Assembly (NCBI GenBank): GCA_010093705.1
Contig: MU006107.1
Location: forward strand, 468,044-532,043
Length of the DNA stretch: 64,000 nt
Origin: Patellaria atrata CBS 101060
Lineage: Eukaryota; Ascomycota; Dothideomycetes; Patellariales; Patellariaceae
Direction: 5' to 3'
Of the stretch, positions 44,527-64,000 are shown piece by piece. The notes beneath the pieces were generated by a model. The model worked only from the letters and a program-made list of their open reading frames with translations, was not told the DNA's origin and made no database searches. Every line of letters starts with the position of its first letter. Position 1 is the first letter of the stretch. The translations under genes were made by a program, and so were the position numbers.

Positions 44527-44569
44527 CGCGACCTTCAACTCTAAACCCTACCACAACAAAACAAAAACA

Positions 44570-45991
44570 ATGTCTTCGCAAATCCAAGAATCTAAAATCA
44601 TCCTTGTCATCGAGGCTATCCAGGCAGCAAAAAATATGTCTATCCGAACTGCTGCGAAGACGTATAATGTCCCCCGAACGACCCTTACCGATCGAGTCAA
44701 CGGACGCGTCGCGAGACCCGAGAAACGAAACGCCCGGTACAATTTGACCCTCAACGAAGAAGAAATGATTATTAAGTACGTACTCGACTAAGATTCGCGA
44801 GGGTTTCCCCCCCGGATCGATAGCGTTGAAGATATGGCGAATCTCCTCCTCGCGTCGCGTCACGCACAACGAGTCGGCAAGAAATGGCCATACCGCTTTA
44901 TAGAACGCCGTCGAGAGCTTAAGACGCGTTTCTCTCGCGCATACGACTTCCAGCGAATCCTCTGTGAAGATCCTAAGTTGATTGAGGACTGGTTTCTACT
45001 TGTGGCCAATATGCGCGCAAAGTATAGTATCCAAGATTGCGACTTCTATAACTTTGATGAGACGGGCTTTGTGATAGGGGCTATCTGTGACAGTATAGTC
45101 ATTACACGTGCCGATCGACGTAGCCGAAGCTAGCAACTCCAACCAGGTAATCGGGAATGGGCGACTGTGATTGAGTGCGTGGCAAGCGATGGCTTTTGTA
45201 TCCCTCCATTCCTCATTGTCTAAGGCGTCAATCACCTCGCGTCTTCGTATACGAAATGTGACCTCCCCCCTCCTTGGGTCATTACGACGACTCCTAATGG
45301 CTGTACCGATAATGATACGGCCCTTGAATGGATTAGGCACTTCGATAAACATACTAAGGTCCGGCAACAAGGACTCTATCGGATGATTGTCCTTGACGGC
45401 CATGATAGCCACTTATCTGCCTAGTTTGAGAAATTCTATAAGGCTAACAATATTATTACGCTTTGCCTACCTGCACACTCCTCCCACCTTACCCAGCCTT
45501 TAGATGTTGGGTGCTTTAGTGTATTGAAATGGCTATATAGTCGGGAACTTAAGGAATATATCAAAGCTCATATCACCTATATTACTAAGACGGAGTTCTT
45601 TATTGCATTCAAAGCCGCCCACTTTAACCCAATAACGCCCCAAAATATCAAGGCTGGCTTCCGAGGTACTGGCCTAGTACCATATAACCCTCAAGTTGTA
45701 ATATCGAAGCTAGATATCAAGTTACGGACACCAACACCTACCAGCTCCCCGCTCCCTAAGGCTGACCTATGGGCCTCCCAGACTCCATATAGCCCAATAG
45801 AGGCCATTTCACAGTCCGAATATATACGAATTCGAATCTCTAGGCATCAAGGAAGCTCTCCAACTCATATTTTCGGCGATATCATGATTAGCGAAAGGTA
45901 CGGAGCTGATTGCCCATGAGATGACCCCTTTAGGTAACCGGGTACATACCCTTGAAAAGGCTAACGAGGCCCTTTCAAAATATCGCACCTG
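44570..45991 (+). pseudogene. Broken pogo/Fot1 transposase
   Basis: One reading frame with four nonsense codons: TAA 44789, TAG 45131, TAA 45221, TAG 45422. At least three sit where Gln is expected, as C-to-T changes would give. A helix-turn-helix DNA-binding region opens it (IQAAKNMSIRTAAKTYNVP). The catalytic acidic residues are visible in NFDETGF, LDGHDSH and QPLDVG. A one-base frameshift near 45893-45905 moves the conserved tail (ELIAHEMTPLGNRVHTLEKA) into another frame. It cannot make transposase. Confidence 0.9.
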
Positions 45992-46451: not shown

Positions 46452-47055
46452 TAATATGGATCTGGATTTCCTGGATTTTTTGAGTATCGAATCCGAATCC
46501 AATCCACGACTAGTCGAATCCAAATCCACGTCAAATCGCGTTGAAAATCCAGTCAAGATCCACCTGAATCCAATCCACGGCCATCACTGCTTTCAGATGC
46601 TGGAGTTGCTCACATTTGTCACCGATACCTAACTGTAAAATCTTCAATTATATTGTAGAAATACCAAATCTGGGGATTGAGAGTTCAAGCCTCTACGAAC
46701 TAACCAGTCAAACATCTTCGGACAAATCTTAAATTCGCGACCAGGAGTTGTTATATATTTGGCGATAGAGTTTAGAAACACAACCAATCAGAACCAGCTA
46801 AGGTATATCAGTATATATTACGAACCACCTATTCTCCAGATGTCGTTTACACCTATATAGCTAATGTCATAGTAGTATCTTGTCTCGCCGACGCCCGCTC
46901 CATACTTTTGCGACTTTTACAACAGCGTGCATTAATCTACTAACCTCCACGGTGCGGTAAGATCTTAATCTACCGTTCGATATGTAATAACAGTTGTTAG
47001 GATAGCGATATGCTTCCCCTCATTTTCCAGTCGGGTAAATTGTCGTGTATTTGGT
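46452..47055. other. Intergenic, with AATCCA-rich degenerate repeat at 46460-46585
   Basis: The first ~125 bp repeats words such as CGAATCC and AATCCACG at irregular spacing. The rest is AT-rich without ORFs. Confidence 0.5.
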
Positions 47056-47367: not shown

Positions 47368-48397
47368 ATGCTTTGGCATACCCTCACCGTCGCGGCGTCA
47401 CTGCTCGCCAGCGTAGCCGGCCATGGAGGCATCAGCAAATACACTATCAACGGCATTGAGTATAATGGGTAACGTAGCCCCTGTTTCTCTTTAAGGATAA
47501 AATCTAAAAGCCCTCCAAGCAACATCCCCTATGCTCCTGATGCAGGTCAAGAGAGCATTCAAAGACGATGGTATCCCAACCCGATCGAAGATTTTCGCAG
47601 TCCAGCCATGACCTGTAACCGTGCTGGTGATGGACTTGCCGCCAAAAACCCTACCACTTACGCTCATATCAAAGCTGGGGATACTATCAATGTATACTAC
47701 GACCGTAATTACGAATGCAATGATCTACCCGACGGCTCTAATAAGACAGCATGCTCCTACTTCCAGCGCACATGGGTACACTGTGCGGGTCCAATCATGG
47801 TATACATGGCAAACTGTAATGGGCCTTGTGAAAAGTTCGACGGTAAAGGAAAGGTCTGGTTTAAGATTCAACAGGCAGGGTTAAAACCCGATGGTCGATT
47901 GAACACTTGCGATTTTGCACAGTGGGAAGCGACCCAACGGGGTAGGGAGCAGCATGGAGTTCTATACAAGGGTTGGCCCGTTGTAATCCCCCAGAATCTG
48001 AAACCAGGAAACTACCTGATCAGGCACGAGATACTGATGATCGAGTTGAACCCAGTTCAGGCATACCCGAATTGCGCAAACTTGGAAATAAGTGGCACAG
48101 GAGATTCGGTACCGCCTGAGGAGTATTTGGTGGAGTTTCCTGGCACTTACTCAATGAATGGTATGTGACTGTGGAGATGACGAATATATATGCGAAGATA
48201 TGTTTGCTGATATTCAAACAGAGCCCGGACTTGCCATTGCTGGGCTGCTGTATGGACCTGAATTGAGAAATGTCTCTGTAAGTGGGACAAATTTTGTAGA
48301 GTTTTTGCAAAAGCTAACTCACATGTAGAATTATACTCTTCCCGGCCCAAAGATTTGGGAAGGATTTGACCCCCAGGAATGGAACTGGACTTCATAG
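47368..48397 (+). CDS. AA9 lytic polysaccharide monooxygenase (291 aa)
   Basis: Secreted copper monooxygenase acting on cellulose or hemicellulose. Exons are 47368-47468, 47511-48160, 48222-48277 and 48329-48397, giving 291 residues. Signal peptide MLWHTLTVAASLLASVAG; the mature protein starts with His (HGGISKYTINGIEYNG). After the first splice it reads GPPSNIPYAPDAGQESIQRRW, as in AA9. The second copper His is probably in TWVHCAGPIMVYM; the axial Tyr region is QAYPNCANLEISG. A C-terminal extension (EPGLAIAGLLYGPELRNVSNYTLPGP...) is typical of larger AA9 members. The first acceptor is AAG (47510). It belongs to a different AA9 subgroup than the 40-kb gene. Confidence 0.92.
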
Positions 48398-48704
48398 CTC
48401 TCGTAAGGACGACAAGCTCTTCAAAACATGATCATTACAGATATATAACTCTATATAGTGCTCTAAGATTAAACACAGACCCTAAAACCTCTGAATAATC
48501 TGCTAAATGCATCATCCTTGACGTGATCTCAAGGATTTCTGCCTTGATATGCCTCTTAAAGCGGTTACTGGAATATACAATCTAATATTCGGGTTTAAGC
48601 ATTGAGAGAAGAGGGAATGATAATACCTGAGTATAGGATAGTGCGTAAGCTGTATTGTGAAGATGAGATACAAAATGAACGGAAGATGTGTACGATCTTC
48701 CAAG
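48398..48704. other. AA9 3' region, no gene
   Basis: 307 bp of AT-rich DNA. Nothing coding seen. Confidence 0.5.
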
Positions 48705-48905
48705 TGTTAGATGGTGGAGCTGTCGGAGGTGCTAGTGTCAGATTGCTGCAGTAGCTGAAAAGATGCATGGCTTGATTCTCAAAAGAGTGGTTCTATCTAG
48801 CTGTTATATACTGCAAGTATGTACCAAAAAGGACGGAATAGTATGAAATCTATGTCTTAAAAAACAGTAAAAATAGGTACCAACAGTAAGAACTAAGAGA
48901 TAGTC
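48705..48905 (-). repeat. Two abutting family A repeat fragments
   Basis: 48705-48735 (TGTTAGATGGTGGAGCTGTC...) matches one end of family A; 48736 onward (TGTCAGATTGCTGCAG...) matches the opposite-end portion and also 57541-57715. Confidence 0.65.
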
Positions 48906-49536: not shown

Positions 49537-49785
49537 TGTTAGACTGAAGATCTTGGTGGAAAGGATAATCAAGTATATCTCCTACTGCCTTACGCTAGTT
49601 GTTAGCATCATTCCTTTAACATAGCTGCCTAGTAGGTATCAACGCTGTTGCCTGCATGTTCTCAGTTGCCTAGTAGGCATAAACGCTGTTACCTGCATGT
49701 TCTCATGTATTTAAACGCTCTTTAGAACAGTCATTAAACAATCGAGCGATTATCTTGATCATTTTCAGCACCCTTACGTCTGACA
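49537..49785 (+). repeat. Family B repeat, copy 1 (249 bp)
   Basis: Begins TGTTAGAC and ends GTCTGACA, LTR-like TG...CA termini. It contains a ~40-bp tandem duplication (GCCTAGTAGGYAT...TGCATGTTCTCA). An inverted copy lies at 56464-56712. The 17-18 bp next to it (GAAGTATGGGTCCCC) are also shared by the other copy. Confidence 0.8.
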
Positions 49786-54539: not shown

Positions 54540-55978
54540 CAGCATATGCTGTCTCAACACTTTCTTTCCTTAAGTTTAAGCTTCATGTATATGTAGCAAT
54601 ATACCTTTCAGCTCCCATCTGAGGTTAAGCCTTAACAGGAACCTCCATATACTTAACAACTTTAGCAGTAATGCCTGCTACCTGGATTTTTAGGTGCGCC
54701 AGGGTCTTTTTTCTGTTCTCTTCAGTCTCCACTGCAAAGACAATAGAGCCATACTTGGCAGTTTCTCTTTTCTCCCTTTTTGACAGCTATCTTGGCTTTC
54801 CGATAATTGTAAAAGAGTTAAAGGTTTCAATCTCTTCCTTTAATAATTACATGCCTTCTGCTTCTTAGAAGGGTTGAATGGGCACTCCATGGACAATGAT
54901 CTTTGCCCAGGGCTCTATCTTCTGTTCCCTTTGAAATTGAAAGAACTCTTGCCAAATGTGTTTATGCTGTTGTAGGAATTCAGCTGTGTAACATTCTATT
55001 GTTGTTAGATTGATGTTCTGTTTTTCTTTTGACCTGCTAATGGTTGCCATCACTGACTATCCTAGTTGCAGCTCTCTTTAAACTTTTGATTAACTTTGTT
55101 GCGAATGGAATAGGGTTCAAGTAGTTCTTTATTCTCTGTAACTAGAACTAACTGTCGCTTTTGCAACTATTACTTTTGCTGTTTAGCTGAGAGAGTTTTC
55201 TGAGGAAGCGTACTTGCTGTAATTTTGCCGGGCTGAGGTATGTTAGACCTGACTTTAGTCAAAGTAGCTTTCGGGGCTAGACTCTTCTCGGCCCCATCTT
55301 TGCTGTTGGGAATTGGAACCCTTGCCGTGTCTGCATAGGGTTTCTTTTAGGTAATCTCGTGCGTTACCTTCTCCTTAACAATGCTTAGATCCTCTCTAAT
55401 AGAGAGTAGAATGGCCCTCTCTAGTGTAAACGGTGTTTTTCCTTGTTGAATGGCTGTGATTGCTGCTTAAAGGCTTTGGATCTGAATCTGGGTTTCTAGA
55501 TTGGTATATGCTTGCATTGCTTTCTTAGCCATATTATATGCTTGGTCTAAGCATTCCTTTCCTCCTATACTATGCTCTCGATTTTGCATAGCTTTCTTTA
55601 CTTCTCTAGTAGTTTGCTGAGGTGAGGAGTTTGAAAAAGGTCTCTTTTGGCCTGGGAGTACTGTCTTTCTAGGGGACTGGGTTTGTGGTTGGAACTTAGG
55701 TTGGGCCAGGCGGATCTCTTCACTTGAATCTTCTGATAAGTCTGTATTATCGTCTGATATATATTGAGGTGTTGATGATCTTTGTGGAATTATTGTAGAC
55801 TGTTGTAGGCTTTGTTTTTGCTTTAGTTGAGACTTTGTGATTGGTTGTGGCTTTGATCGTTTTAACTTTAGTCGTTGTAACTTTAGTCGTTGTGATTTTA
55901 ATTGTTGTGACTTTAGTTGTTGTGGTTGTTGCTTCGTTGATGCTAGTTGCTTGGCTTTGTCTGTTGTTGGTTGTAGGG
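54540..55978 (-). pseudogene. LINE ORF1 (Gag-like) relic
   Basis: Minus-strand reading runs from a Gln/Lys/Thr-repeat N-terminus (about 55978-55850, with repeats of CAACGACTAAAGTT) through KECLDQAYNMAKKAMQAYTN and KQNINLTTIECYTAEF to WAKIIVHGVPIQPF and GKPRWLSKREKTAKYGSIVF. The last two are typical of the Gag-like ORF1 of fungal LINEs. Several stop codons replace Gln or Trp. The Gag relic cuts it on the left, and the CTAAC terminal module begins at 55979 on the right. Confidence 0.6.
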
Positions 55979-56004
55979 CTAACTACAATCCCTAAATAAT
56001 ATAT
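55979..56004 (+). repeat. Terminal module IV, truncated
   Basis: CTAACTACAATCCCTAAATA plus ATATAT, nearly identical to the first 26 bp of the module at 57195. It is interrupted by a family A repeat at 56005. Confidence 0.8.
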
Positions 56005-56271
56005 TGTTAGATGGTGAGGCTCGCTACTGGGTAAATGTATGCTTACTAGTTTAAAACAGTGGTGAAAACAATGGTATGGAACGGTAGCTTGAGACAGAAC
56101 GTCAAACCGTATTAAAACAGATCTCTGACAAGAGCACGGATCTGTGGTGTTTTATCTGTTCTCTTTCTGACCCAGTATCATTGTCAACTGTTCAGTATAT
56201 AGTCCGTATCTCTCTCAGTAGTTGCAAATCAAGCGATATATTCAGTGCACCTGCAGATCCAGTTTATCTAA
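56005..56271 (+). repeat. Family A repeat copy, 267 bp, complete ends
   Basis: Starts TGTTAGATGGTG and ends GATCCAGTTTATCTAACA, as does the copy at 62078-62369. The flanks are not duplicated here. Confidence 0.8.
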
Positions 56272-56463
56272 CATCACCCATACATAGAACAAGCAAGCAA
56301 TTGATTGAATACACACAGGTATAAGCTAAGATAGTAGGTAGAAGGGAAAGAGTGTTCAATTGTTATCCGCTATCTGGAGTGGGTGCCTGTGCATGTCTTA
56401 TAGTATTGCCTGCTCAATCACCTCACTTATCCTGGTCCCCGGACATCTGATATCCAGCCATCT
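56272..56463. repeat. Transposon-internal segment, also present before the second AA9 gene
   Basis: Its reverse complement matches 47083-47245 (shared word TACCTGTGTGTATTCAA). Confidence 0.65.
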
Positions 56464-56712
56464 TGTCAGACGTAAGGGTGCTGAAAATGATCAAGATAAT
56501 CGCTCCCTTATTTAATGACTGTTCTAAAGAGCGTTTAAATACATGAGAACATGCAGGTAACAGCGTTTATGCCTACTAGGCAACTGAGAACATGTAGGTA
56601 ACAGCGTTAATACCTACTAGGCAGCTGTGTTAAAGGAATGATACTAATAACTAGCGTAAGACAGTAGGAGATATACTTGATTATCCTTTCCACCAAGATC
56701 TTCAGTCTAACA
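56464..56712 (-). repeat. Family B repeat, copy 2, inverted relative to copy 1
   Basis: 249 bp, TGTCAGACG to GTCTAACA, followed by the shared 18-bp tail GGGGACCTATACTTCAAC (56713-56730). It is flanked by imperfect 21-bp direct repeats at 56443-56463 and 56731-56751 (19 of 21 match). Confidence 0.8.
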
Positions 56713-56751
56713 GGGGACCTATACTTCAACACATCTGATACCCAGCCACCT

Positions 56752-57194
56752 TACGTGATCCTCAATTTCTTCAGCAATTGTCTTAAATCTGAGGCATCTC
56801 GATAATCTGATAGATACATATCCTCTCTTATATATTCTTCGAGCCTCCTTTATCTCCTAGCCTATTGTTCAAAAGAATTATAGTTTCGGGTTCGACTCGG
56901 AAATCTAGTCTGCTTCGATACTGGAATAACATTACTAATGTTCTCCCAATCCTTCACTCCTATTCCTTCGTATGCAAGGCGCTGGTGCTGAAACACGCCA
57001 TCAAGCACCCACGCGTCCCTACGTTGCTCGCCCTTCGGAATGTGCTTTCGAAGCCTATCGGCAAGTGTATCAATGCTCAGACCGATTGCAATGACCATCG
57101 CTCCAAGAATTAGCACCACGATAATTCCCGCAAGACTGAAGTTCTGCTGCGATGAACTTATCCGAATGCGTTGCGTCGCACATTCCGCGAGTTC
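56752..57194. other. Repeat-flanked sequence without a gene
   Basis: Opposing ORFs at 56862-57119 are mirror readings of the same DNA and neither has a recognised domain. The stretch ends at terminal module I. Confidence 0.4.
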
Positions 57195-57302
57195 CTAACT
57201 ATAATCCCTAAATAATATATGCCATATATTATTTAATTGTGGCCCGTGCCTGGCGAAGACAGGGGGTATATATTATTTGCATCTTTCTCCAAAATAATAT
57301 AT
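57195..57302 (+). repeat. Terminal module I, arms AAATAATATAT
   Basis: CTAAC start (57195-57199), then arm X at 57209-57220, inverted arm at 57224-57235, a 32-bp connector starting near GTGGCCCGTGCC, inverted arm at 57268-57278 and arm X at 57292-57302. Same plan as modules II and III with different arm sequence. No open recombinase ORF follows, so it marks a dead or deleted element. Confidence 0.8.
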
Positions 57303-57540
57303 GCCCTAAACCATTGAATTTCGGGAATCTAAGTTGATAATATCCTGCGCGCAAGCTTCAAGAATCCATCGATGCGCTCGTAGCCTTGATATCTTACCTA
57401 ATTATCGAGATGCACCCTCTATTGTTGGTTCGCCTCAACCTTAGGTAGCTGGAGTGATGTTTTGGTTTTCCTGGTCCATGCACCTGAAGCGCCAAGCATA
57501 AAATGAGCCCCCAAATTACGGTACCACATACCTACCTTCC

Positions 57541-57715
57541 TGTCAGATTGCTGCAGTGGCTGAAAAGGTGCATGGCTTGATTCTCAAATGAGTGGTTCTA
57601 TCTATGTGTTATATACCGCAGGTGTGTACCAAAACGGACGGAATAGTATAAAATCTATATCTTAGAAAATAACGAAAATAGTATTAATAGTAAGAACTAA
57701 AAGATAATACTATAT
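57541..57715 (-). repeat. Family A repeat fragment
   Basis: Starts TGTCAGATTGCTGCAGTGGC and is closely similar to 48736-48905. Confidence 0.7.
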
Positions 57716-58035
57716 TAAATTAATAACCCTAATTACTCTAATACCGTAGTTTATAGCGAAATAAATAAACGAGATAATTATCCTAGTTATTAATATTCTA
57801 ATATACTCTTTTAACTTAAAGAGATCTAAAAGATCTAATTAAATTATATAATTATTTTAGTAAAAAACTTAATTTATTTCCTCTAATTAAAACCTTTAAT
57901 ATAATCTTTAATATCTATTATTTTAAGCTATTTAAGAAAGATCTAATACTTTTAAATATTAAATATTTTAGTTAATCTATTAGTTAATATTTATATTATA
58001 AATTTTTAACTAATTTTTATATTTTCTAATTAAAC
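57716..58035. other. Extremely AT-rich, RIP-like block
   Basis: About 320 bp made almost only of A and T, with TpA-rich texture and no coding potential. It ends sharply at the CTAAC of module II. Confidence 0.75.
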
Positions 58036-58144
58036 CTAACCGCAATGCTTAAATCAGTAAATGTATAACTGATTTAAATGTGGACCGTGCGCACCTGAAG
58101 AGCAGGGGTATTACTGATTTAAAAAACTTGCTGCAAATCAGTAA
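58036..58144 (+). repeat. Terminal module II, arms TTAAATCAGT
   Basis: CTAAC at 58036-58040; arm 58049-58058, inverted arm 58068-58077, 33-bp connector (GTGGACCGTGCGCACCTG...), inverted arm 58111-58120, arm 58135-58144. It is followed by a leader sequence sharing AAATCTTCA and CGATAGAA with module III. Confidence 0.85.
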
Positions 58145-61100
58145 AGGATAAATCTTCAAGTAAATGCAGATATAATTCGATAGAAAGGTAAAATCAACCT
58201 TACGCAATCAGCCGGTCAAATTAGATTTTTTATATCGCTTTTAGTTCCTTTAATACAGCCTGCGATATAAATCGCTGGTTAGGAATGTTGATGGGGTCAC
58301 TTTCTATCTATGCGTCCCTACTGGCGCTATCCCTCCAACCAATTAAAAGAAGAAGAAGGAGAAGAAGCGAAGAAAGTCCGAATAGAAGAAATAGAATATC
58401 TCCCTCTCTCTATTCTCCCTCTCCTTTGCTGTAACTCCCTTTTCATTAGGCTTATCAATATCAATGGATCAATTTAATACCCTTTTTATTCATATTCCAT
58501 GCTATCGTGTCGCCGTTTGTAAAGAATGTCACGTTGGTATAGTAAAGGCCAATATCGCCCGCCACCTAGACACTCGACACGCGAATTTGACGAGGAGCAC
58601 ACTGCAGGAAATCGCCCGGGCGGCTAGAGCGATCGAGGAGCTGGCGGAAGGTGAGGAACAGGTGGTATACCCGGGCCCGGACTCCGAGCCCGTGCCCCAC
58701 CTTGCTGTGTGGCGCGACGGGCTAAAGTGCACGCGGTGCGGTTATATCCGCCGAACTATACAGGACGTGCAGTCGCACTGCCGCGAGCAGCACGGCTGGG
58801 CGAACCCGCGGAAGAGGGGCCGCATGGCCAAGGGCTGCCGGGCCGAGGCCAACGCGATGTGGGTGGAAGGGGTGCACTGCCAGAAGTTTGCGGGAGCCGG
58901 CAAGCTAGGGAAGCTGTTTGAGGTTAAGAGCCAGGAGGAGAAGATAGACGCGGGGAGAGGTATACCGCAGGACGAGGGAGTCGAGATAAGCCAACAACTA
59001 GAAAGAATGTTTATCAAGGTGTCTAGACAGCTAGAGAAGGCGGAGGAGGATGCGTACTCGATCGTGGAGCCGGACAGTGACAGGTTCATCCCCAACACGT
59101 GGCTGGACAGATCAGGATGGGCAAAGCATTTTGCCGGTTTCGATCGCACTTGGCTGCGCTCATTGGTCCAGAGGCCAGGAAGGCACGAGAGCGCGCTGAC
59201 AAAGCTATGCTGGGCGGTTGAGAGTGTGATATATAAGGCCCAGCGGTCATCGACAGCTGAGGTTATGGGATTGCCATCCATGAATTACATCAATAGAAGA
59301 GAAGCAGGGAATGATACTAACGAGAAGCCGTTAAACACGCGGCAGGCCGGCTCAACGATGATTAGATATAGTCGGGTCTGGGTCGGCATGATTGGCTACA
59401 TCTGGAGGACATACAAGCTGGAAGCAGGCTTGCCGGCAGCGGGCAATGGCGTAGTAGAAGAAGACGGGGAAGAGGGAAGCGGGCATGAGCGTACTAAGAG
59501 GAGGCCAACGTACCGGCTGACAGGTAAGCAACAGGAATGCTTATCAGGGATTATTGATATAGTTAGAGAGGATAAGGATGAGGAGGATGGTGAGGGAAGA
59601 GAAGACGAAGAAGAAGTATACTATAAGCTCACGGCGGTAGAGGATGACGATTACAGCGAGGCTAGTGAGTATAACGTGGAAGACTTATTAGGAGAGGAGG
59701 AAGAAGCCCAGCTAGAGAGTAATACCTTAGCGTTCCTACTATCGCTGTTAGATCACCAGTTAAAGGATAGCGAGTATCAAAGCGCGCTTATCAGTGCCAC
59801 GGCTGCATTCGGTGTAGATGCAGACCAGGGCTGGAAAGGTGTGCTCGCATACACACCTACGCTCTCAGCAATCATCACGGTCGCCAGGATGCTAGTGCTC
59901 TACCAGGCAAGACAGACCAGAATCCGGAGCATCGAGGAGATGATAGGGAGGGATGGAATTGACGGAGAGAAGGCACAAGACCTGGCGCCATCTCACTTCG
60001 AACTGGTGAAAGAGATGACTGGCCGATTTATGACGCTGACGGCTTTTGGAGGCCAGCCTAGTCCGATGGACTCGTTACTACGGCTGCGAACGTATGGGTT
60101 CAAGATTAGGTTCAATACCAACGCTGAGGGTAAAGTGGACTGGGCGGGGGACACGCTACTGTATGGCCATGTCAAGTTCACCGTTCCAGAGCTGCGATCG
60201 ATGATCCATGGGCTGGTGGAGACAGCGCGGCTGGAACTGATGCAGGACCTGCTACTGCTAGACATGGATGAGGATGGCCAGGTTAAGGAAGGCTCGACAA
60301 CGGCGCCGGCCATATGTTGGGACAGCCTGGTGGACAATCCGGCGGAGATGAAGGCCGGATGGAACCTCTTTAAAGATTCCAGAAACACATTTGGAGGTGT
60401 CGACGGCAAAGAGTGGCTGTCAGGGCGCATGGTTAGGGAGCAGAGGCTGAGGCGACGGTTTATCAATAGCATAGCAAAGGACACGGCTGCTCCGGATGGC
60501 TACGGGATCGCTTGGAGGATAGCCCAGGTCAGGCGGTACCAGAAAGCAGGGAAATCGTTCCGCCAGAAGCTGCTTGTGCTGGCACATATGACCGGAGGGA
60601 TGCCAGCGCGGGGGACCGAGATCGTCTCAGTCCAGTACATGAACAGCCCCAACGGGGAGGGTAGAGGGTTGTTTGTGGAGGATGGGCTGCTCGTCTATGT
60701 CACCAGGTACCATAAGGGCATCGGAGCGAGTTCAAGAGCCAAAGTGATCCACCGCTATCTACCAAGGGAGGTTGGCGAGTTGATGTTCTACTACCTCTGG
60801 CTGGTCATCCCGTTCCAGGCCAAGTTGAGCATGGCACCGAGCGGGAGCGTCGCAAGGCAGCCCAGCGCATTCATCTGGGAGCCAGCGGGGGAAAAGACGT
60901 GGGAAGGGCCGCAGCTCAAGAAAAGAATGGGGAGAGCTGGAAGTCGAGAAGCCGAAGGGTCGAGCGAAGGTGATACTATAGCAGAAGATAAAGGTTTGGA
61001 GGAGACGGAAAGGTGGGATACTAACCGTATAGGAAGAGCGCTACAGCAAGTATCTATAAGGTGGCTAGGAGTTAAGCTTGGCATCTTAAGCTGGAGACAC

Positions 61101-61738
61101 TGCGTTAAGGCAATCTATCGCAGGTATATCAGCGACGAGACAGCCCAGCACGCGCTGATAGAGAGCGATGGAGAGGAAGAGGAAGACGAGGCGGACAATC
61201 CATTTGACATTGGCTTTGGGCACGGGTCAAAGACCGCAGAGGCTGTTTACGGCAGGACGGTTGACGAGTCCCCATTTAGTACCGCCAGTCAGCGCTCAGC
61301 CCTACGTAAGGTTAGCAAGAGATGGCACGAGTTTCTTAAGTTCCAGTCGACGCTAGAAGATGATGCTTATCGCAAAGGAAAGATAACAGCAAAAATAAAG
61401 AAGAAGGAAGCTATAGAGGGAGAGATGAAGAGGTGGAAAAGGTTACGAGCGGTTAATATCCGGGAGCAATTGAAGTTGCTGGTTGGGAGCGAGGCAGAGT
61501 TTAGGAGCGTCCAAAGACCGGCACTAGAGGCGATCATGCAACAGAAAAATCCCGTGGTCGTGGTGATGGGAACAGGCGCCGGGAAGAGTATGCTATTCAT
61601 GCTACCGGCATCGTGCTTAATAGGTGTGACAGTTGTCGTGGTCCCACTAATTTCGCTGAGGGCAGATATGAAGGCACGCTGCAGCCATGCCGGGATCGAG
61701 TGTGTCGAATGGGACAGCAGGAGGCCACAGGAATGGGC
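58036..61738 (+). mobile_element. Recombinase-helicase element 1 (5' part, truncated by element 2)
   Basis: Begins with terminal module II, has a ~430-bp leader and a single long ORF, and is cut at 61738 where the next element's CTAAC starts. The sequence lacks the nonsense changes that riddle neighbouring transposons, so it arrived late. The 3' end is not in place next to it. Confidence 0.7.
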
Positions 61739-61742
61739 CTAA
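58464..61742 (+). CDS. Zinc finger (OrsD-like) - tyrosine recombinase - RecQ helicase fusion, helicase truncated
   Basis: 1,092 codons ending in a stop provided by the inserted element 2. Residues ~20-110 hold two fingers of the pattern C-x2-C-x11/12-H-x4-H (CKECHVGIVKANIARHLDTRH; CTRCGYI...HCREQH), as in fungal OrsD-type proteins. The middle carries a tyrosine-recombinase signature: R716 (MPARGTEIVS), K751 (TRYHKGIG), R878-H879 (LSWRHCVKAI), H920 and Y929 (GHGSKTAEAVYGRT; His to Tyr spacing of nine as in integrases). The box II His position is Leu875. The C-terminus starts a RecQ-like helicase: VQRPALEAIMQQ, Walker A GTGAGKS (K1041), VVVVPLISLRADM. The DEAD/DEAH box and all later motifs are lost. 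The zinc finger-RecQ arrangement is known from subtelomeric fungal helicases; the recombinase reading is mine. Confidence 0.8.
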   Translation: MDQFNTLFIHIPCYRVAVCKECHVGIVKANIARHLDTRHANLTRSTLQEIARAARAIEELAEGEEQVVYPGPDSEPVPHLAVWRDGLKCTRCGYIRRTIQDVQSHCREQHGWANPRKRGRMAKGCRAEANAMWVEGVHCQKFAGAGKLGKLFEVKSQEEKIDAGRGIPQDEGVEISQQLERMFIKVSRQLEKAEEDAYSIVEPDSDRFIPNTWLDRSGWAKHFAGFDRTWLRSLVQRPGRHESALTKLCWAVESVIYKAQRSSTAEVMGLPSMNYINRREAGNDTNEKPLNTRQAGSTMIRYSRVWVGMIGYIWRTYKLEAGLPAAGNGVVEEDGEEGSGHERTKRRPTYRLTGKQQECLSGIIDIVREDKDEEDGEGREDEEEVYYKLTAVEDDDYSEASEYNVEDLLGEEEEAQLESNTLAFLLSLLDHQLKDSEYQSALISATAAFGVDADQGWKGVLAYTPTLSAIITVARMLVLYQARQTRIRSIEEMIGRDGIDGEKAQDLAPSHFELVKEMTGRFMTLTAFGGQPSPMDSLLRLRTYGFKIRFNTNAEGKVDWAGDTLLYGHVKFTVPELRSMIHGLVETARLELMQDLLLLDMDEDGQVKEGSTTAPAICWDSLVDNPAEMKAGWNLFKDSRNTFGGVDGKEWLSGRMVREQRLRRRFINSIAKDTAAPDGYGIAWRIAQVRRYQKAGKSFRQKLLVLAHMTGGMPARGTEIVSVQYMNSPNGEGRGLFVEDGLLVYVTRYHKGIGASSRAKVIHRYLPREVGELMFYYLWLVIPFQAKLSMAPSGSVARQPSAFIWEPAGEKTWEGPQLKKRMGRAGSREAEGSSEGDTIAEDKGLEETERWDTNRIGRALQQVSIRWLGVKLGILSWRHCVKAIYRRYISDETAQHALIESDGEEEEDEADNPFDIGFGHGSKTAEAVYGRTVDESPFSTASQRSALRKVSKRWHEFLKFQSTLEDDAYRKGKITAKIKKKEAIEGEMKRWKRLRAVNIREQLKLLVGSEAEFRSVQRPALEAIMQQKNPVVVVMGTGAGKSMLFMLPASCLIGVTVVVVPLISLRADMKARCSHAGIECVEWDSRRPQEWA

Positions 61743-61847
61743 CTACAATGCTTAAGTGTTTTAAGGTCTAAAACACTTTTTTTTTGGCGCCAAGATTCTG
61801 AAAACCGGGGGCTTAAAACACTTTCTTACTTTCAAAAGTGTTTTAAG
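61739..61847 (+). repeat. Terminal module III, arms AAGTGTTTTA
   Basis: CTAAC at 61739-61743 (its TAA is the stop of the upstream ORF); arm 61754-61763, inverted arm 61769-61778, 33-bp connector, inverted arm 61812-61824 (13 bp), arm 61835-61847. Leader words AAATCTTCA and CGATAGAAGGGT follow. Confidence 0.85.
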
Positions 61848-62060
61848 GTCAAAATCTTCAGATATATTGCGATGCAAACCGATAGAAGGGTGCAATTGAC
61901 CTAGGTGAATATTCTAATAAAGTCAGATTCGTTTATTAGCTAGTTTTTTGATGCTAGACTATCATGTTAACATATCAGGTTGGAATTCTTTGGATGAGGC
62001 AAATTTCCATCCGTGCGCACTGCCAAGGGCCTCCATCTCCTAGTCTAGGGGGAGAGCAAG

Positions 62061-62078
62061 CCTCCCTAGAAGTATTCT
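62061..62078 (+). repeat. 18-bp direct repeat, left copy, flanking a family A repeat
   Basis: CCTCCCTAGAAGTATTCT, repeated exactly at 62370-62387. The final T may instead be the first base of the repeat, giving a 17-bp duplication. Confidence 0.9.
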
Positions 62079-62369
62079 GTTAGATGGTGGAGCTATCGGG
62101 GTGTTGATTCTTGTGGTAACCAGGGGTAGTGAGCTAGTCGCTTATACCACCACAATTACGGTATCGTCGTAACCTAGGGTTTCTAAACTAACATAACACT
62201 ATCTTTTAGTTCTTGTGTTGGTGCTATTTTCGTTATTTTCTGAGACATAGATTTCATACTGTTCCGTCCGTTTTAGTACACACCTGCAGTATATAACAGC
62301 TAGATAGAACCTCTCTTTTGAGAATCAAGCGACATATTCCATGCACCTGCAGATCCAGTTTATCTAACA
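62078..62369 (+). repeat. Family A repeat, complete copy (292 bp)
   Basis: TGTTAGATGGTGGAGC to AGTTTATCTAACA, with TG...CA ends and 8-bp terminal inversion. It inserted in the leader of element 2. Confidence 0.85.
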
Positions 62370-62387
62370 CCTCCCTAGAAGTATTCT
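62370..62387 (+). repeat. 18-bp direct repeat, right copy
   Basis: Identical to 62061-62078. Confidence 0.9.
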
Positions 62388-62449
62388 CTCCCAGCGATCA
62401 TGCCTCTACGGAGCAGTTAGCAAGAAAATCAGTCAGAGTTATCATCATC

Positions 62450-64000
62450 ATGGATCAGTTCAACCAGCTTTTCGACTATGCATCAAGATACGGCATTATA
62501 ATCTGCAGAGAGTGTCGGATTGGCTGTTTACTGACGCAGTGTAGTACACATCTAGCAGCAAGGCATGCGCACTTGACCGCAAGAAGCAGGAGAGAGATGG
62601 TCCAGTTTGCGGCCGGCATCAAAGGATTTGCGATGACAGAAGATCAGGTGGTCTGGCCAGTGTCAGGTTCAGATCCGATCCCAGGATTAGCAATCTACAA
62701 GGATGGGCTCAGATGTACAGCAAAAGCAACAACAGAGGGACTGAAGGAGTGCGGATATATCAACAGGGATATAAGAAATATGAAGAGCCACTGTCGCAAG
62801 GAACATGGATGGGTCAGCAAGCAGAGAGGACGACCAGCTGACGGTCTGCAGCCAGATGGAGAAAAGTCATGGATTCAAGGCATACACTGCCAAAAGTTTG
62901 CAGGAGCCGGTAAGCTAGGAAAGCTGTTTGAGGTCAATAGCCAGGAGGAGGAGAAGAAGATGGATGCAGTAGGAAGAGGTGCACAAGAAGAGGAAGTTGA
63001 GATAAGCCAACAACTAGAAGAAATGTTCGCCAATATATCCAGCCAGTTGAAGAAGGCAGAGGAGAATTTATACTCGACCGTGGAACCGGATGAGAATAGG
63101 TTCATCCCCAACGCATGGCTAGACAGAACAGGATGGGCAAAGCATCTTTCCGCTTTTAATCGCGCCTGGTTACGCTCATTGGTCCAGAGGCCAAGGAGAA
63201 ATGAGAGGGCATTGGCAAAGTTGTCTTGGGCAGTTGAGACGGTGATATATAAGGCTCAAAAGTCATCAACAACCAAGGTGATGGGATTAGCATCTATGAA
63301 TTATATTAATAGAAGGGAGGCGGGTAATGATAGCAACGAGAAGCCGTTAAACACACGCCAGACAGGCTTAACGATGATCAGGTATAGCCGGGTCTGGGTT
63401 GGTCTGATTGGCTATATCTGGCGGACGTTCAAGCTGGAGGCAGTGTTGCCAGCAGCTGGCAATGGAGGTATAGTAGAAGAGGACGAGGAGGGGGAAGGCT
63501 GGGAGGAGGTTACTCAGAAGAGACCAATGTACCAGCTAACAGCCAGGCAACAGGAATGCCTATCAAGGATTATAGACATAGTTGGAGAGGATAAAGACGA
63601 GGATGATAGTGAGGGAATGCAAGAAGAGGAAGAAGAAGCATACAATAGACTATCAATAGTAGAAGAGAGTGAGTATTATAGTAAGGCTGGTGAGTATAAT
63701 ATAGAAGACATGTTAGAAGACGAGGAAGAAGCTCAGCTAGAGAATAAGGTGTTAGCATTTCTACTATCCCTATTAGATCACCAGCTGAAGGATAACGAGT
63801 ATCAAAGCGTACTCATCAGCGCTGCAGCTGTATTCGGTGTGGATGTCAACCAAGGCTGGAAAAGCGTGCTGGCATACACACCTGTGCTCTCAGCAATCAT
63901 CACGGTGGCCAGAATGCTGGTTCTTTACCAGGCAAGACTGACCAGGATCCGGAATATAGAGGAGATAATGGAGAGGGATGGGATTGAGGAAGGGGAGACA
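62450..64000 (+). CDS. Paralogue of the zinc finger-recombinase-helicase protein, 5' part (continues beyond window)
   Basis: Open for 517 codons from ATG 62450 to the last base. It begins MDQFNQLFDYASRYGIIICR; the start matches element 1 (MDQFNTLF). Finger 1 is present (CRECRIG...HLAARH). In finger 2 the cysteine pair is split by extra residues (CTAKATTEGLKEC) before GYIN...HCRKEH. From GIHCQKFAGAGKLGKLFEV onward it is closely similar to the upstream protein (for example RFIPN.WLDR.GWAKH and MNYINRREAGND), whereas the first ~140 residues are strongly diverged. The recombinase and helicase parts lie beyond the window, so activity cannot be judged. Confidence 0.85.
   Translation, partial: MDQFNQLFDYASRYGIIICRECRIGCLLTQCSTHLAARHAHLTARSRREMVQFAAGIKGFAMTEDQVVWPVSGSDPIPGLAIYKDGLRCTAKATTEGLKECGYINRDIRNMKSHCRKEHGWVSKQRGRPADGLQPDGEKSWIQGIHCQKFAGAGKLGKLFEVNSQEEEKKMDAVGRGAQEEEVEISQQLEEMFANISSQLKKAEENLYSTVEPDENRFIPNAWLDRTGWAKHLSAFNRAWLRSLVQRPRRNERALAKLSWAVETVIYKAQKSSTTKVMGLASMNYINRREAGNDSNEKPLNTRQTGLTMIRYSRVWVGLIGYIWRTFKLEAVLPAAGNGGIVEEDEEGEGWEEVTQKRPMYQLTARQQECLSRIIDIVGEDKDEDDSEGMQEEEEEAYNRLSIVEESEYYSKAGEYNIEDMLEDEEEAQLENKVLAFLLSLLDHQLKDNEYQSVLISAAAVFGVDVNQGWKSVLAYTPVLSAIITVARMLVLYQARLTRIRNIEEIMERDGIEEGET

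Follow-up and report, generated by a model that had tools for sequence, protein, structure and literature searches.

The DNA analysed, referred to here as the window, is a stretch of 64,000 bases from Patellaria atrata CBS 101060 (contig MU006107.1). By eye, its content looks fungal. Its first 31 kb contain thirteen stop-to-stop open reading frames (ORFs) of at least 200 aa, several of which resemble ordinary cellular genes by eye, and the part between 38 and 64 kb is rich in repeats and transposon remains. In this second part lie three palindromic modules (I, II and III), together with a partial one (IV), and two paralogous ORFs. Modules II and III each stand upstream of one of these ORFs, on the same strand, at 320 bp and 605 bp from the chosen ATG, respectively. 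The distance in element III falls to about 296 bp once an LTR-like insert is subtracted along with one of the two repeats at its flanks. This insert (62078-62369, TGTTAG...CTAACA) lies in the leader of element III and is flanked by direct repeats of 18 bases (62061-62078 and 62370-62387; 17 bases if the last T belongs to the insert), which is long for an LTR target duplication.

ORF II (P0001) extends from 58464 to 61742 on the forward strand and encodes 1092 aa from the ATG chosen here, within a stop-to-stop frame at 58395-61742. It comprises an OrsD domain (aa 7-111), a set of recombinase-like boxes (aa 716-929) and the start of a RecQ-type helicase (aa 1011-1090). ORF III (P0002; 62450..64000, forward strand) is a paralogue of ORF II, also with OrsD, that leaves the window before the recombinase-like region. 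The Pfam matches to OrsD have E values of 3.2e-22 in ORF II and 2.7e-20 in ORF III. In ORF II a match to DEAD (E 3.3e-7) covers the helicase, which is shortened by module III, and two more Pfam rows, ResIII and Mei5_like, stay below the cut-off. A PDB search with the helicase start placed RecQ helicases nearest (best chain E 9.3e-7). ORF II therewith holds OrsD (formerly DUF3505) and a RecQ-type helicase together in one unit.

The region between these two domains contains, in order, R716, K751, R878, H879, H920 and Y929. Tyrosine recombinases carry the ordered residues R, K, HxxR, H and Y; in ORF II, Leu875 takes the place of the first His of HxxR. When aa 401-1000 were shuffled 50,000 times, the box pattern turned up in 3 shuffles, a count that is only indicative because the pattern was drawn up with the protein in view and loosened once after a first version had missed. 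For this region Pfam, searched up to E 10, returned a weak match to Peptidase_M56 as the sole one (E 0.068, under the cut-off), profile searches in PHROGs and PDB returned no match, and the AF2 single-sequence model (pLDDT 36.9) is too poor for fold assignment. Judged by its motifs, the middle domain of ORF II appears tyrosine-recombinase-like. The link to a tyrosine recombinase made in an earlier, sequence-only reading of this DNA is therefore kept as far as the linked ORF, its finger-like motifs and the ordered boxes are concerned, and finds no integrase profile match in Pfam, PHROGs or PDB. DUF3435, the domain of Starship captains, had no Pfam match in the ORFs either. Such a profile result would suit an element of another helicase-bearing class, a DDE transposon such as AcademH or a Helitron, in which the recombinase-like boxes would be accidental, and helicase-bearing DDE elements are reported from fungi in the available portion of PMC10799480. 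We regard this assignment as very unlikely: the Pfam matches of both ORFs and of two separately scanned pieces of ORF II include no DDE, HUH or Helitron domain, the Academ-type DDE transposase domain (AcademH) being likewise absent from them, and between 54000 and 64000 the sole inverted repeat that meets the CTAAC boundary of a module from outside that module is a pair of 14 nt with 86% identity (I22).

Module I occupies positions 57195..57302 of the forward strand, beginning with the CTAAC start word, and its four arms are placed at 57210-57219 (+), 57225-57234 (-), 57269-57278 (-) and 57292-57301 (+); each of them can be read one base longer (11 nt). Module II (58036..58144, +) has its arms at 58051-58060 (+), 58066-58075 (-), 58111-58120 (-) and 58135-58144 (+). 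Module III (61739..61845, +) sits where ORF II is cut off, with arms at 61754-61763 (+), 61769-61778 (-), 61814-61823 (-) and 61836-61845 (+). An exact scan of the forward strand for the plan X, X', X', X (gaps of 2-15, 25-45 and 5-20; arm lengths of 6-10) gave, for k=6-10, matches that all fall within these modules in the 64,000 bases, those at k=9 and 10 in modules I and III only. Shuffling the window in blocks 20 times produced no match with arms of 7 or 8 and, at k=6, 0.2 matches on average with at most 2. Shuffled locally by dinucleotides, modules I, II and III each gave 0/1500 at k=7 and at k=8; at k=6 the counts were 5/1500 (I), 0/1500 (II) and 2/1500 (III). A scan for the register with up to two mismatches per arm recovered the three module sites on the forward strand and none on the reverse; three mismatches added two forward sites, 48984 and 57829, which is the chance level (mean 0.75 and maximum 4 in 20 shuffles). 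The four-arm plan is present in the 64 kb at exactly the three sites from which it had been described. Chance palindromes in AT-rich DNA are ruled out by the exact scan, the local shuffles and the register scan.

The register of the arms is nearly the same in the three modules. In a common 10-nt frame and counted from the C of CTAAC, arm X1 starts at +15 and X2 at +30 in each, X3 at +74, +75 and +75 and X4 at +97, +99 and +97 in I, II and III, respectively. The centre of the first dyad is at +27.0 in 3/3 modules, and the distance between the dyad centres is 63.0 (I), 64.5 (II) and 63.5 bp (III), close to six helical turns for a DNA helix of 10.5 bp per turn. A recount of the originally reported spacing, done by eye with the arms of that reading, corrects two values: the 13-15 bases to the first arm apply when CTAAC itself is included, the word being followed by 8-10 bases before the arm begins, and the two X' arms are 33-35 bases apart, not 32-33. 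In the common frame the first dyad measures 10-5-10 and the arms of the second are separated by 12-14 bp. These dimensions do not suit the standard tyrosine-recombinase core site to which the dyads had been likened, the typical core having two inverted arms of 11-13 bp and a spacer of 6-8 bp (PMC3212892, in the part of it available).

The arms change as a set from one module to another: in a common 10-nt frame, picked after the arms had been seen, their identity is 9.83/10 within a module versus 5.83/10 between modules, so the co-variation of the four arms holds. They are not wholly different words, since A1, A2, T4 and A10 are invariant in all 12 arms and position 3 is A or G, which points to a fixed frame around a variable core; the idea that the arms differ completely between modules has to give way to a consensus, AA[AG]T....[AT]A, common to all of them. 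The agreement of the four copies within each module is close but not full: in module II one arm deviates at one position of the common frame, and the word first proposed for this module, TTAAATCAGT, is matched at 8/10 positions by the fourth arm. Apart from the partial copy at 55994, the window has no further instance of the arm words of I and III. The module II 8-mer AAATCAGT is found at four further places in the window and its 9-mers at none. A closer look at the alignment showed identical arm columns of 59, 60 and 49% and identical non-arm columns of 53, 51 and 57% for I-II, I-III and II-III, respectively; the connectors, supposed to be constant, are hence no better kept (51-57%) than the arms (49-60%). 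As for the outer words, the start word is kept at four places and the connector word GTGG[AC]CCGTGC is confined to I and II.

The likeness of the arms within a module might also come from gene conversion or palindrome-associated repair, with no reader at all, given that inverted repeats can homogenise, as is generally known. This is highly improbable, for the spacing and register are fixed across the modules despite their differing arms and, within a module, the bases just past the arms differ in part.

The modules can also fold, and the arms could be nucleic-acid hairpins, formed in a leader RNA or in single-stranded DNA during a replicative step, instead of duplex sites. The folds of the single-stranded DNA have z-scores of -3.49, -3.29 and -5.25 (I, II and III), with 0/200 shuffles as good in each case, and the element encodes a RecQ-type helicase that would go with such a step. 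Such z-scores, however, are yielded by any strong inverted repeats, and an Rfam scan of 55900-62500 with E up to 5 gave seven weak matches, none of them at gathering score and none on a module. Moreover, hairpins do not require that stem 1 and stem 2 share their sequence, yet they do in 3/3 modules. Pairing alone would permit the two stems to drift separately, so the single word that both carry suggests one shared reader. We consider the hairpin explanation quite unlikely. A known RNA family was rejected as well, since Rfam gave nothing at gathering score in 55900-62500.

An outer inverted pair encloses the second dyad in two of the modules. In module II it was found by reading and is formed by TGAAGA (58096-58101) and TCTTCA (58153-58158) on the forward strand, paired in the RNA fold and unpaired in the DNA fold. 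In module III, TCTGAA (61797-61802) and TTCAGA (61857-61862), on the same strand, are the ends of repeat I3 and are paired in both the RNA and DNA folds. Module I showed no clear counterpart. Directly after module III comes the leader word AAAATCTTCANNTATATTG (61851..61869, +), and the 50 bases from 61852 differ from those starting at 58150 in element II by 15 mismatches.

What stays constant in the modules is a 17-base start word, CTAACYRYAATSCYTAA, given here as the consensus of the four sites at 55979, 57195, 58036 and 61739. All four are on the forward strand, and allowing up to two mismatches brings up no other site in the window. CCTAAC, as a putative telomeric target, resembles a permutation of the telomere repeat, but the shared word is only five bases long and no telomere-repeat array is present in the 64-kb window. 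The copy at 55979 opens the partial module IV (55979..56004, +), made of the start word and arm X1 of module I, which is identical to 57195-57220 at 25/26 positions and is cut by a TGTTAG...CTAACA LTR-like sequence at about 56005-56274 (by eye). The left flanks at 55979 and 57195 differ, and the match starts exactly at 57195. Module III cuts ORF II off: the TAA within its CTAAC serves as the stop codon of the ORF. With one start word and arm standing behind unlike upstream DNA at 55979 and 57195, and with ORF II interrupted by module III, the modules resemble the left borders of repeated units of mobile appearance, as the sequence-only reading had proposed, and an element end is favoured. The window showed neither a right end nor a target duplication or an empty site; the I22 pair is too short to be telling as a sign of the right end, which could lie beyond the window. 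A place at a chromosome end, with TTAGGG motifs, characterises the DUF3505-RecQ subtelomeric repeat family; the sequence TTAGGGTTAGGG, with up to two mismatches, occurs 4 times in the window versus 4.3 expected, and the window stops inside ORF III.

The position of modules II and III, about 0.3 kb upstream of the chosen ATGs and on the same strand (discounting the insert in III), would also be that of an operator: by binding the arms, the element protein would regulate the promoter of its own gene, and the module would play no part in movement; repeated palindromic sites suit a dimeric regulator. Modules I and IV, on the other hand, are without a gene of their own, since there is no ORF of at least 200 aa between 55979 and 58395, and a module that begins at the breakpoint of ORF II and at the point where the flanks diverge is expected of an end and less of an operator. 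A purely regulatory module is unlikely, and the operator and end roles can coexist.

The N-terminal segment of ORF II (aa 1-125; 58464..58838, +) contains two C2H2-like motifs, beginning at aa 19 and aa 89. This finger segment is the most diverged part compared between the two ORFs, with 56/124 residues identical (45%) versus 274/373 (73%) in aa 126-512. Other blocks are diverged as well: 25/40 residues are identical in 321-360 and 25/40 in 361-400, and block 241-280 has 14/28 synonymous differences. At identical residues, 37/54 codons differ synonymously in the finger segment versus 86/261 in the rest (Fisher 2.4e-6). Both paralogues retain all eight zinc-ligand positions in their fingers, and between the second Cys and the first His 1/11 residues agree in finger 1 and 6/12 in finger 2. 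The AF2 model of the fingers is weak (pLDDT 50.0). As the synonymous divergence of the finger segment is saturated, omega cannot be computed for it and no positive selection is shown; omega is 0.16 in the rest. The synonymous excess is not expected from amino-acid selection alone and would be given by exchange of the segment or by homogenisation of the rest, so that the divergence of the fingers points to exchange or older ancestry. The third-position GC shows no foreign sign (0.66 in the finger segment versus 0.60 in the rest of ORF II, and 0.51 versus 0.51 in ORF III). Altogether, these values fit a recognition segment with its own history, as seen in two genes only. A putative recognition code formed by the arm words is consistent with the two genes that have arms. 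It may tentatively be proposed, with a rather low chance of being right, that the elements form a recombinase family with a swappable address, in which the finger segment and the four-arm module change together, the catalytic parts stay alike and relatives ignore each other's ends. The 5' position of the finger segment and of the end module would let one recombination event swap reader and address together.

The explanation that we prefer, and whose chances we take to be about even, builds on the architecture and its register, on arms that change in concert, on the ORFs linked to them, on the interrupted ORF II and on the unlike left flanks. It holds that the modules serve as left-end recognition sites for a family of fungal mobile elements encoding one protein with OrsD (DUF3505), tyrosine-recombinase-like and RecQ parts. 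In this scenario the arms would be protein-binding sites and the finger segment their presumed reader, the protein of the element binding the four copies of its own arm word in two dyads about six helical turns apart. The bound protein would bend the end into one synaptic complex, an active recombinase would cut or exchange strands at or near the conserved CTAAC, the putative cut site, and the helicase domain would open the DNA. If the arms are read by the adjacent finger segment, this would be a natural eukaryotic recombinase whose address varies among relatives and whose layout is fixed. If the recognition-site explanation is true, it would also provide a concrete mobile-element mechanism for the DUF3505-RecQ repeats of chromosome ends, the role of which is discussed as unsettled in the accessible text of PMC7473861.

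Helicase and DUF3505 together are already known from Colletotrichum higginsianum, whose subtelomeric repeats DHX_G198, DHX-chim_G203 and DTX-chim_G199 combine the two and whose helicases were likened to RecQ genes at the chromosome ends of other fungi (PMC5576322). The unit described here is similar in joining both in one unit, on long repeats in that fungus, and differs in that the available part of the paper names neither a tyrosine recombinase nor a terminal arm module for those families; in contrast to those subtelomeric families, the present window is without a telomere-repeat array. A RecQ-like helicase is also shared with the telomere-linked helicases UTASa and UTASb of Ustilago maydis, for the second of which OrsD is mentioned as well (PMC10532341), and with the subtelomeric RecQ proteins of Agaricus bisporus, in the comparison of which no domain besides the helicase core was found (PMC7473861); the portions of these sources at hand describe them without a recombinase or four-arm ends. 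Subtelomeric RecQ genes are described from Mycosphaerella graminicola too (PMC4522978, in part). Among fungal recombinase elements the closest in idea are Cryptons, tyrosine-recombinase elements without terminal inverted repeats; unlike the elements here, CryptonF is described with GCR1_C and not with OrsD or RecQ, and with termini of 4-6 bp direct repeats and not four-arm modules (PMC3212892, available part). GCR1_C is absent from our Pfam matches, and this domain is C-terminal in Cryptons, the part that both ORFs lack in the window. Starships are likewise fungal mobile elements with a tyrosine recombinase (PMC12134995, in its accessible section). Among the literature matches listed and the portions of papers available, no OrsD-recombinase-RecQ element with four-arm ends was found.

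Relatives were sought with short exact patterns, by which distant ones are missed, and their lack says little because the collections hold prokaryotes, phages, plasmids and viral contigs. Two protein scans of IMG/VR matched 71 and 52 stretches, none of which was confirmed, and in genome_contigs 1/226 stretches was confirmed (L001), over aa 1000-1078 only. Two phage and three plasmid records matched the helicase part only. IMG/VR contains a single occurrence of the module III start word (L008), by eye without the arms, and none of the start word of the partial copy at 55979.

Several further features lie in the repeat-rich part of the window. Element II is flanked by inverted repeats, one of 107 nt (91%) and one of 40 nt (80%), at 57575-57731 and 62175-62330; they are related to sequences near 48770 and 44318 and perhaps represent one LTR-like family in opposite orientations. 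The stretch left of module II (57640-58035) is very AT-rich, as would be expected from repeat-induced point mutation. At 49540-49740 and 56490-56700 one stretch, including a 41-base tandem pair (56544-56625), is present by eye in inverted copies. By eye as well, 44530-45990 appears as a degenerate DDE-type (pogo-like) transposase sequence, and 47370-48400 holds a frame with the start MLWHTLTVAASLLASVAGHGGISKYTI resembling an AA9 polysaccharide monooxygenase. Finally, 46629-46655 holds CTAAC and, three bases further on, AAAATCTTCAATTATATTG, which is the leader word seen behind module III (61851); this site resembles a relic that has lost the module between CTAAC and the leader word.
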